From Methylococcaceae bacterium (GTDB lineage Bacteria > Pseudomonadota > Gammaproteobacteria > Methylococcales > Methylomonadaceae), in the NCBI GenBank assembly GCA_013141375.1, contig JABFRC010000200.1, forward strand, positions 1 to 33,283: 33,283 nt of DNA, given 5' to 3'. The position numbers and the translations under genes were made by a program. Shown here piece by piece: positions 1-4,493 of this stretch. Below the pieces are notes generated by a model, which had not been told where the DNA came from, did not search any database, and saw only the letters and a list, made by a program, of their open reading frames with translations. The stretch's first letter is position 1; each line of letters begins with the position of its first letter.

Positions 1-1668
1 CTTGCAATCGCAAGTGTCGCGCAGGCAGGCCCTTCCCCCGTTGTCAGCTTCGGTTCTTATAAGAGTCATCAAATTAATGTCGACGTATTCGGACAGAATA
101 TTCCTGGTGACCGGGGCAATGAGCCCACGATAGCCCTCAATCCACTCAATCCGGCCAATATTGTTATCGGCTGGCGCATGTTTGATTCACCACCCACAGC
201 CTTGAAACATGGGGGCGTTGGGGTTAGTTTCGATGGTGGCCTGAGTTGGAGTAACTCAAAGCTACAAGCCTTAACGGGACAAACCCGCACCGACCCTGTG
301 CTGGATGTCGATTCAAACGGCAATTTCTATTACCAATCGTTGGGGCTGGGAGGAGAAGACAGAACCTCAGTTTTTAAATCCAGCGATGGGGGGATCAACT
401 GGTCCGAGCCTGTGTTTCAATTTAATGGTGATAAAAACTGGCTTGCCATTGATAAAACCTCAGGTCCCAGCAATGGCATTATCTACAGCACCTGGCGCCG
501 AACCAGCTTTCCCAATCCAGATCCCAGTTATATTCCGAAATATTTCATACGCTCGGTAGATGGCGGTATCAGTTATCAGGAGCCCGATGCCCCATTGCCT
601 GTGCCTTATTTTGGTTTTGGCAGAATCGCAATTGGTCCGGAAGGCAATGTTTATCTTTCCGGCTTTGATGAATCACTCCTTTCTATCAATGCACTCGGTG
701 TTATTCGTCAGGGACACTATTTCTTAAAGTCCGTCAATGCCAAGGAGCCTTCTATTTCACCCACATTTACTGCCAAAAAGATTGATATGGGCGGAAATTC
801 GGTGATGCTTCTTTCTCCGCAGTTGCAACTTCCAAATCCGCTTGGAGGCGATGGCGATATTCAAATTGCTGCCGATCAATCTACCGGTCCTTTACGGGGG
901 AATATATACATGCTCGCCCATGTGGTTCCCTATGACTGGATACCTGGAGGGGATCCGTTGGATGTCCATTTTGTGCGCAGCACCGATGGTGGTGAGACAT
1001 GGTCAGCGTCGACGCGTCTCAACGATGACAGTCCGAGTGCCGACGCCTATCAATGGTTTCCAATGCTTAGCGTAGCACCCAATTCCCGTATCGACGCAGT
1101 TTGGTACGATACCCGCAATGCTACGGGCTTGACGCCCTATCGATTTTCACAACTTTACTACACCTATTCCTGGGACGGCGGCATAACCTGGAGTCATAAC
1201 CAAGCAGTGACGCCGATCTTCAATACCCACCTGCCGAATAGTATTGTGAATGGTGAAGAAAGACCGGCAGATAAAATCGGCGACTACACGCAGATGCTGT
1301 CCGATGCCAATGGTGCACATATCGCCTACACCGCTACTTTCAATGGCGAACAGGATGTGTACTATCTGAATATATTCCCGGACTGTAATAACAACAGGCT
1401 GTCTGATGTGCTCGATATTGAACAACGTAAAAGCGGTGATACCAATGTCAACCATATTCCCGATTCATGCGAGAACATCACTGTATCCGGTGATATAGAC
1501 GGCGACCGCGATGTCGATCAACTGGATGTCAATCTGTTACTGGCCGTTAAAAACAAACCGGCTACCGGTGCGAATGATCCACGGGATTTAGACAAAAATG
1601 GCGTAGTTAACCTGCTGGATGCGCGAAAGCAGACCTTACTATGCACTCGGCCGCGATGTGCTGTGTAG
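1..1668 (+). CDS. Secreted BNR/Asp-box (sialidase-fold) protein with C-terminal dockerin-like domain, 5' truncated
   Basis: Frame 1 is open from base 1 (LAIASVAQAGPSPVVSFGSY..., the tail of a signal peptide) into the listed ORF at 178. Five Asp boxes: SFDGGLSW, SSDGGINW, SVDGGISY, STDGGETW, SWDGGITW. The C-terminus has DCNNNRLSDVLDI..DTNVNHIPDSCE followed by GDIDGDRDVDQLDVNLLL...RDLDKNGVVNLLDARK, two dockerin-like Ca-binding loops. Confidence 0.85.
   Translation, partial: LAIASVAQAGPSPVVSFGSYKSHQINVDVFGQNIPGDRGNEPTIALNPLNPANIVIGWRMFDSPPTALKHGGVGVSFDGGLSWSNSKLQALTGQTRTDPVLDVDSNGNFYYQSLGLGGEDRTSVFKSSDGGINWSEPVFQFNGDKNWLAIDKTSGPSNGIIYSTWRRTSFPNPDPSYIPKYFIRSVDGGISYQEPDAPLPVPYFGFGRIAIGPEGNVYLSGFDESLLSINALGVIRQGHYFLKSVNAKEPSISPTFTAKKIDMGGNSVMLLSPQLQLPNPLGGDGDIQIAADQSTGPLRGNIYMLAHVVPYDWIPGGDPLDVHFVRSTDGGETWSASTRLNDDSPSADAYQWFPMLSVAPNSRIDAVWYDTRNATGLTPYRFSQLYYTYSWDGGITWSHNQAVTPIFNTHLPNSIVNGEERPADKIGDYTQMLSDANGAHIAYTATFNGEQDVYYLNIFPDCNNNRLSDVLDIEQRKSGDTNVNHIPDSCENITVSGDIDGDRDVDQLDVNLLLAVKNKPATGANDPRDLDKNGVVNLLDARKQTLLCTRPRCAV
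1483..1665 (+). other. Dockerin-like tandem EF-hand-type domain (within the BNR CDS)
   Basis: Two loops DxDGDxDVDxxD and DxDKNGVVNxxD about 33 residues apart at the extreme C-terminus. Confidence 0.7.
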
Positions 1669-1715
1669 TCACAACACGCCACCTATAAAAATAAGAACCT
1701 TAAGAGACTTTATCC

Positions 1716-2306
1716 ATGAACCCCTTAATTTACAGATTGTTTTTTCTAGCGTCATTCCTGTTGTTTAACGGCGTGACCCAGGCCAATATCAGCCTGGGCA
1801 TCACCCCAATTACTCAGTCAGGAAACTCAGTCAATCTAGGCCTAGTGATTTCCGGCTTGGGAAGTGCTTCCGCACCATCGCTTGGCGGATACGATTTTGA
1901 CATTGGTTTTGATCCTGCCCACTTATCTTTTGACAGTGCCGTCTTTGGTGATTCGGTTTTGGGCAATCAACTGGATTTGTCCAATTTTGGTTCAAACTAC
2001 ACGACTGCTAATGTCGGCAGCCCAGGTCTTTTGAATTTATCCGAACTGTCTTTCGATGCCATTTCCGACTTAAACACCCTGCAAGCCGATAGTTTTACCT
2101 TGGCAACGCTCAGCTTTAATGTGCTCAACCCAGGCACCAGTCAATTGGATATTACAATTAATACCTTGAGCGATGCCGATGGCAGTGCGCTCCTGGCAAA
2201 CAATACCTCTGTCGCCATCACCACCGTTCCTGTACCGGGGGCAGTCTGGCTAATGCTCAGCGGATTGGGTGTGTTTTTCAGAAAATATCCATTGCTAACT
2301 AATTAG
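1716..2306 (+). CDS. Secreted cohesin-like domain protein with PEP-CTERM-like C-terminal sorting signal
   Basis: N-terminal signal peptide. Cohesin-like pattern (GGYDFDIGFDPAHLSFDSAVFGDSVLG ... LATLSFNVLNPGTSQLDI). The C-terminus VPVPGAVWLMLSGLGVFFRK resembles gammaproteobacterial VPxPAAVWLxxSGL sorting signals. Confidence 0.75.
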   Translation: MNPLIYRLFFLASFLLFNGVTQANISLGITPITQSGNSVNLGLVISGLGSASAPSLGGYDFDIGFDPAHLSFDSAVFGDSVLGNQLDLSNFGSNYTTANVGSPGLLNLSELSFDAISDLNTLQADSFTLATLSFNVLNPGTSQLDITINTLSDADGSALLANNTSVAITTVPVPGAVWLMLSGLGVFFRKYPLLTN

Positions 2307-2363: not shown

Positions 2364-2403
2364 TGGGAGCGACACCTACGTCGCGACGTAGGTGTCGCTC
2401 CCA
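2364..2403. repeat. Perfect 40-bp palindrome, REP-like element
   Basis: TGGGAGCGACACCTACGTCG|CGACGTAGGTGTCGCTCCCA: 20-bp arms, no loop, intergenic. The TGTGGGAGCG-type outer end resembles gammaproteobacterial REP sequences. Confidence 0.8.
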
Positions 2404-2456: not shown

Positions 2457-4493
2457 TTGAAAAAACTATTTATTGTTTGTCTGATTTCAATATCAGCACA
2501 TGCCGATGAAACCCTGACCTTGCAAACCATGCAGGTCACCGCAGGTCGTTCGACCATTGACAGCTTTAACGTACCCACTGCTATTACCGTGATCGATCAG
2601 GATGACATTGAAAAACAGGTGCCGCAGATCCTGCCTGATCTGCTGCGGGGACAAACAGGGGTATTTGTGCAGGAAACCACCCCCGGCCAGGGAATTCCCA
2701 TCATCAGAGGTCTAAAAGGATCGGAAGTTCTCTATCTTGTAGATGGTATGCGACTAAGCAATGCCATTTTCCGTAATTCGCCGAATCAGTACACAGCGAT
2801 GCTTGACCCTTTCAATGTAGAAAGCATCGAGGTGTTACGCGGTCCATCATCATCCCTTTATGGCGGCGATGCGATGGGCGGCGTGGTGCAAGTGATGACG
2901 CCCACGCCTCGATTTTACGGCTCCGAATGGCAATCAAACGCCGCATTCGACAACAGTTATGCCAGTGCCGAAAATGCCTTTCAAACCCATATGAAACTTA
3001 GTGCAGGCAATGAGAAACTTGCCGTGCTGGGAGGTTTTGGGTATCAGGATTTTGATGACCGTGTCGCAGGGGGGGGTGAAGAGCAAGCTCATTCAAGTTT
3101 TAAATCCTGGGCGAGCAATAGTAAAGTCATTTACCACCCAAACAATGCTCATGAATTGCTGTTGGACATGCAGTATTACAACCAGCCTAAAACACCGCGT
3201 TATGATGAATTAATGCCGGGATACGGCCAAACCAACCCCAGCTCTTCAGTATTCTACTTCGAGCCCAACGAACGGCTGTTTTTGCATGGCAGATACCGTT
3301 ACACGCACAACACGCCGTTATTTGATAGTCTGGAGTTCCATGCTGCCCATCAACGAATCACGGATGACAGGCGAGCTCGGGATTTCGGAGATTCTATAGA
3401 AACCAGAGAGCGCAATGCCAGTCTTTTAACAGGGTTTACAGTTCAAGCGGCCCTGGCTCATTGGCCCCGTTCTCAATTGGTATACGGTTTTGAGTTTTAT
3501 CATGATGAAGTCGACAGCCGACGTTTTGATACCGATATCAATACAGGAACAGCTTCTACTGAAAAGAGTCGCTTCCCAAACGCTTCCACGATGGATTCTT
3601 ATGCACTGTATGGCAATGAGACCCTGCAGCTTGGCGAGCGCTTGCAGTTCATGCTGGGCACACGCTACAGCCATTACCATACGATACTGGCTCCGGCAGA
3701 TCGCGGCGTTGGCGCCAGGCTCGATCATGATGATGTCACCGGCAATGTCGGTTTGTCCTATTTACTGATTGACGGACTTAAATTTGTCAGCAACTTTGGA
3801 CGCGGTTTTCGTCCGCCGAATGTGTTTGACCTGGGTACGCTGGGCTCTCGACCGGGAAATCGTCACAACATCGCCAATCCCGCACTAACCCCCGAAACCC
3901 TATTGACCTGGGATGGAGGATTCAAATTTCAGAACAGGGTCTGGCAGGCTGAAGCTATCGGCTTTGTTACGGACTACCGAGATAAAATTACCAGTGTGTT
4001 GACCGGTGATAAGATTGCGGGACGTGATGTTGTTCAAAACCAGAATGTTAATAAAGTAAAACTTTACGGAGTAGAATTTGGCGCCCGATTTTTTGCCAGT
4101 GACCAACTTGAACTGTTTAGCAGCGTCAATTACACGCTGGGCGACGAAACCTTCACCGACGGCAAAAGCTTACCGGCAGACCGCATTCCGCCCTTAAATG
4201 GTCGATTCGGCCTACATTACACTCTGATGCCAACACTTTGGATTGAGTCTTATACCCGCTTCGCCAGCAGGCAGAATCGATTGAGTGGTCGTGATCGGGA
4301 TGACCCGCGCATCAATCCGGCGGGGACTGCAGGCTGGGCGACCTTAAATCTTCGTGCTGGCTGGAAACCCCATGAAAATTGGGCACTCCAACTGAGTCTT
4401 GAAAACTTGCTGGACAAAAACTACAGAGAACATGGCTCAGGCATCGATGCAACAGGCGTCAATGTCATCGCCAGCCTGCACATGACCTTGTAA
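2457..4493 (+). CDS. TonB-dependent outer-membrane receptor (haem/siderophore-type)
   Basis: TTG start, signal peptide MKKLFIVCLISISAHA, plug domain (VTAGRS...IPIIRGLKGSEVLYLVDGMRLSNA...VLRGPSSSLYGGDAMGGVVQV), barrel with FRPPNVFDLGTLG and a C-terminal ENLLDKNYREHGSGIDATG...LHMTL. Confidence 0.9.
   Translation: MKKLFIVCLISISAHADETLTLQTMQVTAGRSTIDSFNVPTAITVIDQDDIEKQVPQILPDLLRGQTGVFVQETTPGQGIPIIRGLKGSEVLYLVDGMRLSNAIFRNSPNQYTAMLDPFNVESIEVLRGPSSSLYGGDAMGGVVQVMTPTPRFYGSEWQSNAAFDNSYASAENAFQTHMKLSAGNEKLAVLGGFGYQDFDDRVAGGGEEQAHSSFKSWASNSKVIYHPNNAHELLLDMQYYNQPKTPRYDELMPGYGQTNPSSSVFYFEPNERLFLHGRYRYTHNTPLFDSLEFHAAHQRITDDRRARDFGDSIETRERNASLLTGFTVQAALAHWPRSQLVYGFEFYHDEVDSRRFDTDINTGTASTEKSRFPNASTMDSYALYGNETLQLGERLQFMLGTRYSHYHTILAPADRGVGARLDHDDVTGNVGLSYLLIDGLKFVSNFGRGFRPPNVFDLGTLGSRPGNRHNIANPALTPETLLTWDGGFKFQNRVWQAEAIGFVTDYRDKITSVLTGDKIAGRDVVQNQNVNKVKLYGVEFGARFFASDQLELFSSVNYTLGDETFTDGKSLPADRIPPLNGRFGLHYTLMPTLWIESYTRFASRQNRLSGRDRDDPRINPAGTAGWATLNLRAGWKPHENWALQLSLENLLDKNYREHGSGIDATGVNVIASLHMTL

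Follow-up and report, generated by a model that had tools for sequence, protein, structure and literature searches.

A conserved cohesin and dockerin gene pair as a candidate two-gene display system in methane-oxidising and other gammaproteobacteria

We analysed a 33,283-nt stretch of DNA (the window), contig C236 in a gammaproteobacterial assembly of 3.9 Mb (GCA_013141375.1, Methylococcaceae bacterium), and focused on two neighbouring genes at its start. The first open reading frame (ORF1, 1..1668, + strand, 555 aa, open at the contig start) encodes a BNR beta-propeller protein with a C-terminal dockerin, the cargo. The second (ORF2, 1716..2306, + strand, 196 aa) lies 47 bp downstream and encodes a cohesin protein with a PEP-CTERM-like tail, the proposed anchor. 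An earlier sequence-only reading had described this gene pair and its 47-bp spacing, and the coordinates of both ORFs agree with it. It had also called the BNR protein secreted. A signal peptide does exist, together with the start codon, at the end of contig C4 (L060:9610-9869); ORF1 itself is truncated in the window, where its 5' end is missing, and on this point the earlier description is corrected. The end of C4 encodes MKQSLHISKIHQRPISVSQKGLFLASLAIASVAQA and overlaps the start of the window at 174/182 nt.

The dockerin, or plug, carries two calcium-binding loops: DIDGDRDVDQLD (1492..1527, + strand), with D at ligand positions 1, 3, 5, 9, and 12, and DLDKNGVVNLLD (1585..1620, + strand), with D or N at the same five positions (alignment A1). 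They correspond to residues D498-IDGDRDVDQL-D509 and D529-LDKNGVVNLL-D540 of ORF1, match exactly the two loops quoted in the sequence-only reading, and are both intact. The domain ends in CTRPRC (1642..1659, + strand; alignment A1 and a 23-pair alignment), a Cys pair common to most of its subfamily. The subfamily profile scored the ORF1 dockerin at 108 bits (7e-31), a value that is partly circular since the profile includes ORF1, and a relative in the same subfamily passed PF00404 with 23.9 bits.

The cohesin protein, or socket, begins with a signal peptide read from the sequence (MNPLIYRLFFLASFLLFNGVTQA, 1716..1784, + strand), followed by the cohesin domain (1815..2183, + strand), which narrowly passed the PF00963 cut-off of 24.1 with 24.9 bits and is the sole cohesin match in this genome. 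A degenerate PEP-CTERM-like tail, VPVPGAVWLMLSGLGVFFRK, closes the protein (2226..2285, + strand). Among the relatives, 8/14 matched PF07589 at E <= 1, and the genome of the window encodes an exosortase (PF09721, 1.6e-73) and 11 PEP-CTERM motifs above the cut-off. The secreted cohesin protein with a C-terminal anchor was borne out for the domain and the signal peptide, and its tail is PEP-CTERM-like and sub-threshold.

For the fold of the socket, we modelled a homologue rather than the window copy. In L116, whose cohesin is 32% identical to that of the window, the dockerin and cohesin genes are in frame, and a natural read-through, with Ser in place of the stops, forms a single chain. Its AlphaFold2 model reached a mean predicted local distance difference test (pLDDT) of 79.7 and a predicted template modelling score (pTM) of 0.71, with 44 residues under pLDDT 50. 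The top 49 Foldseek matches were all cohesins, and the best VIA match had a Z of 16.5 and a root-mean-square deviation of 2.1 over 140 residues; VIA-align covered residues 110-277, the cohesin part and not the dockerin. Model and fold search indicate a cohesin fold in this family member. The pTM is compatible with docking and is not counted as evidence for it, as it came without predicted aligned error or coordinates.

The sequence-only reading had named lack of conservation of the gene pair as refuting it; the pair withstood this check, being kept across the genus and in several other genera. Homologues of ORF2 were found in 15/61 related genomes (E <= 0.01), and the weakest of them probably share only their tails. 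A BNR-dockerin gene followed by a cohesin gene occurs in the three other genomes of the genus (4/4 with that of the window), in G004, and in G014; G005 carries both on a single contig with about 4 kb between them. The closest named cohesin relatives come from records of methanotrophs (Methylococcaceae metagenome-assembled genomes (MAGs), Methylobacter, Methylomonas, and Methylocaldum). Methylomonas koyamae SM2 (L138), a methanotroph that can be cultured, has the orthologous pair.

We then searched a class sample of 369 genomes with a cohesin model and a dockerin model. Cohesins were present in 17 genomes, dockerins in 16, and both in 13, against about 0.7 expected (Fisher P = 4e-18). All 13 co-occurring pairs were adjacent genes on the same contig, within 3 kb. 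Two of the four genomes with a cohesin and no matching dockerin (G272 and G196) have a PF00404 dockerin of another type, above the cut-off, in the neighbouring gene or the next but one. Three genomes had the dockerin only, and in one of them (G405) the adjacent gene encodes a weak cohesin (14.9 bits). Five more loci came from a phylum-wide sample (G484, G535 twice, G746, and G700); in each, the gene immediately upstream encodes a dockerin protein, and three of these dockerins score weakly. Because the query alignments were built from family and order relatives, the class and phylum matches are independent of the queries, with the exception of the genome of the window. Among named records, the genes are paired in L140 (a Cellvibrio MAG), L141, and L142, and the cohesin of L143 (Bryobacterales) is not paired. 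The pairing of cohesin and dockerin is not due to chance, and the cassette is conserved in methane-oxidising bacteria and many other gammaproteobacteria.

The cargo of the window is a propeller with five Asp-boxes (PF02012 BNR, 4.8e-8 in Pfam). Between propeller and dockerin lies an Asp/Asn-rich linker, DCNNNRLSDVLDIEQRKSGDTNVNHIPDSCE (1381..1473, + strand), which, as read from the sequence, resembles a thrombospondin-3 calcium repeat; it is kept in 7/7 BNR relatives and gave no Pfam TSP_3 match. The AlphaFold2 model of ORF1 was poor (mean pLDDT 62 from 7 alignment rows), and a fold search with this low-confidence model returned mostly sialidase-type propellers. ORF1 contains no FRIP/RIP motif, and PF13088 (BNR_2) reached 22.5 bits against a cut-off of 31.4. 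A sialidase (GH33) identity was dropped, since the RIP motif is absent. We regard ORF1 as a propeller without an assigned ligand, the ligand being most likely a glycan or a matrix polymer.

In other genomes, the cohesin gene lies beside different cargos. Its neighbour is a VPS10/BNR propeller with a dockerin in G033, an RHS protein with an embedded dockerin in G020, and FG-GAP proteins in G047, where on contig C38 the dockerin ORF overlaps the long cohesin-adjacent ORF in a different frame and may represent a split gene. An RHS gene also adjoins the cohesin in G002:C60, where the contig ends inside the RHS gene and the dockerin is not seen. Across the class, cargo identities assigned by Pfam were IgGFc-binding (G301), RHS with PASTA (G124), MopE and Hydin-like domains (G359), subtilase (G368), GDSL lipase (G381), NHL (G105), glucose/sorbosone dehydrogenase (G344), and endonuclease I with exo/endo phosphatase (G198). 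To judge from these assignments, the sole feature that all cargos have in common is being a secreted protein with a dockerin.

The anchor varies too. In G045, a dockerin protein with cadherin-like repeats lies beside a cohesin fused to an autotransporter barrel (PF03797, 7e-55), and this replacement of the PEP-CTERM tail by a barrel in one family fits an anchor role. Natural cohesin-autotransporter fusions of this kind were observed in G045 and G038 (L075:6497-8260 and L074:3697-5532).

By hand count, the dockerin is at the cargo end facing the cohesin gene in 29/36 pairs, and we infer that the dockerin and the cohesin gene may move as one block. We rate it slightly better than even that this represents a general gammaproteobacterial display platform, in which a short plug-plus-socket block (the dockerin codons and the cohesin gene, often about 50 bp apart) would recombine as one piece onto secreted proteins that are otherwise unrelated, and in which the anchor, PEP-CTERM or autotransporter barrel, would be exchangeable.

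At the mechanistic level, the cassette is probably a dedicated two-gene, calcium-dependent cohesin-dockerin display system, and binding, calcium dependence, exosortase processing, and location are all predicted parts of it. The signal peptide would export the BNR propeller protein across the inner membrane, and the C-terminal dockerin would fold around two calcium ions and bind the cohesin encoded next door. The cohesin protein would be exported as well, and its PEP-CTERM-like tail would keep it in the membrane for the exosortase, which would pass it to the cell envelope or the exopolysaccharide. The cargo, without an anchor of its own, would then be tethered to the surface or the matrix by a non-covalent, calcium-dependent joint. 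Across gammaproteobacteria, plug and socket stay paired and the cargo is exchanged. The sequence-only reading, in which the PEP-CTERM-like protein anchors the BNR protein as a two-component non-cellulosomal display, is supported at this predictive level.

Several results weigh against this interpretation. On ORF1, PF00404 (dockerin type I) reached 11.6 bits against a cut-off of 22.9, and the tail of ORF2 was under both thresholds, with 13.2 bits against 20.7 for PF07589 in Pfam and 11.2 against 16 for TIGR02595. The cohesins of G186 and G182 have no dockerin neighbour. Between the window and G003, the ratio of nonsynonymous to synonymous substitution rates (dN/dS) was lowest for the propeller (about 0.05), followed by the dockerin (0.07) and the cohesin (0.15), with dS near saturation. 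These values point to purifying selection on all three parts, which speaks for the display system; against it, the cohesin evolves fastest of the three, faster than the cargo. Within the genus, the cohesins are 48-50% identical and the BNR proteins 83-85% (window against L061, L062, and L034), which may reflect either fast evolution or gene exchange; the tree does not separate the two. The plug and socket tree distances gave a Mantel r of 0.49, or 0.32 with one BNR pair, a correlation confounded by common descent. The cohesin of G004, from another genus, was observed to be as close to that of the window as those of the genus sisters, or closer.

The cohesin could instead be a general scaffold serving several dockerin proteins, its BNR neighbour being one client. 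In G005, a single cohesin shares its contig with two dockerin proteins of this type, a BNR protein and a penicillin amidase. A second dockerin protein follows directly downstream in G301, and additional dockerin matches occur in the genus relatives G001 and G003. However, most class genomes have one cohesin and one dockerin, and in the genome of the window the subfamily profile found one dockerin of the type of ORF1. The other dockerins of this genome belong to Kelch proteins and are of another type. We consider an adaptor for several clients unlikely. The Kelch-repeat proteins (L057:3227-4507, L058:3247-4833, and L059:3351-5483) have a different dockerin-like stretch, above the Pfam cut-off in L057 and L058 and below it in L059, and no cohesin partner for them was found in the genome.

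These dockerin-like repeats without a matching cohesin, and the location of the genus locus among other PEP-CTERM genes, would suit an envelope operon whose two domains do not bind each other, the dockerin-like tail being a calcium-stabilised end cap and the cohesin-like protein an ordinary Ig-like surface protein. The recurrence of the pair with unrelated cargos in unrelated neighbourhoods (Fisher P = 4e-18) makes this very improbable. Least probable, by a small step, is a cohesin protein that assists export or folding transiently and passes the cargo on without lasting anchorage. A chaperone would be consistent with the coupling of the genes and with a single cohesin for each cargo, and the tail of ORF2 is degenerate, but the autotransporter-barrel version suggests a lasting link to the outer membrane. 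We thus prefer the dedicated two-gene display system.

Regarding the genomic context, the region upstream of ORF1 (L060:2216-9613, contig C4) encodes an ECF (extracytoplasmic function) sigma factor, FecR, a TonB receptor of the siderophore type, and two or three PEP-CTERM proteins. On the 3' side of the cassette, window positions 2457-4493 encode a TonB receptor nearest to hemin receptors, and gene order around the cassette is largely the same in G001 and G003. This neighbourhood is suggestive of a locus that responds to iron or haem. The interval from the cohesin gene to the TonB receptor gene contains a perfect palindrome, GGGAGCGACACCTACGTCGCGACGTAGGTGTCGCTCCC (window 2364-2403), a repeat element or a terminator. 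CTxxxC dockerins also occur on PKD proteins directly beside TonB receptors (L078:6584-10153 and L076:6821-10437), the receptor in L078 being ZnuD-like, and no cohesin gene was found within the stretch read at these loci. Another type of dockerin, which follows thrombospondin-3 repeats and ends in PGPSGL, lies near a divergent cohesin-PEP-CTERM gene (L127:6134-12001 and L129:5576-8734), perhaps a parallel plug-and-socket lineage.

Compared with the type I cellulosome, the predicted joint is the same, and the modelled cohesin fold of L116 is nearest to cellulosomal type I cohesins. However, a cellulosome has a multi-cohesin scaffoldin, whereas the genome of the window has one cohesin and the cargos seen are mostly not cellulases. 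A cellulosome was discarded for the single cohesin and the lack of a multi-cohesin scaffoldin in this genome.

Passages of PMC5244752 and PMC9012536 citing Peer et al. 2009 place non-cellulosomal cohesin or dockerin proteins in Archaeoglobus, anaerobic methanotrophic (ANME) archaea, and Saccharophagus, and the passage in PMC5244752 calls their function outside cellulosomes unknown. Our cassettes resemble these proteins in having both domain families outside cellulose degradation and few cohesins per protein. In ANME genomes the copies are numerous and scaffoldin-like proteins contain as many as five cohesins, in contrast to the strict one-to-one gene pair, swappable cargo, and visible anchor described here, and in Saccharophagus cohesin-dockerin binding stayed an open question in the literature. 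With one-to-one pairs whose cargo and anchor can be recognised in the sequence, a non-cellulosomal role becomes directly testable. Our literature search, which did not include the Peer et al. 2009 review, found no paper on dockerin/cohesin cassettes paired with PEP-CTERM anchors. Judged without that review, the modular two-component display is best read as a new form of non-cellulosomal cohesin-dockerin system.

The likeness to PEP-CTERM/exosortase sorting (Haft et al. 2006, PMC1569441) lies in the signal peptide, the C-terminal Pro motif, the hydrophobic stretch, the basic residues, and the genomic exosortase; that paper mentions neither cohesin nor dockerin. The difference is that the sorted protein here would be an adaptor for another protein, which suggests a job as surface adaptors for one class of PEP-CTERM protein. 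Finally, surface attachment by engineered cohesin-dockerin autodisplay, as summarised in PMC9705933, is man-made, whereas G045 and G038 carry a natural cohesin-autotransporter fusion, and the loci reported here offer candidate orthogonal plug/socket pairs for engineering.
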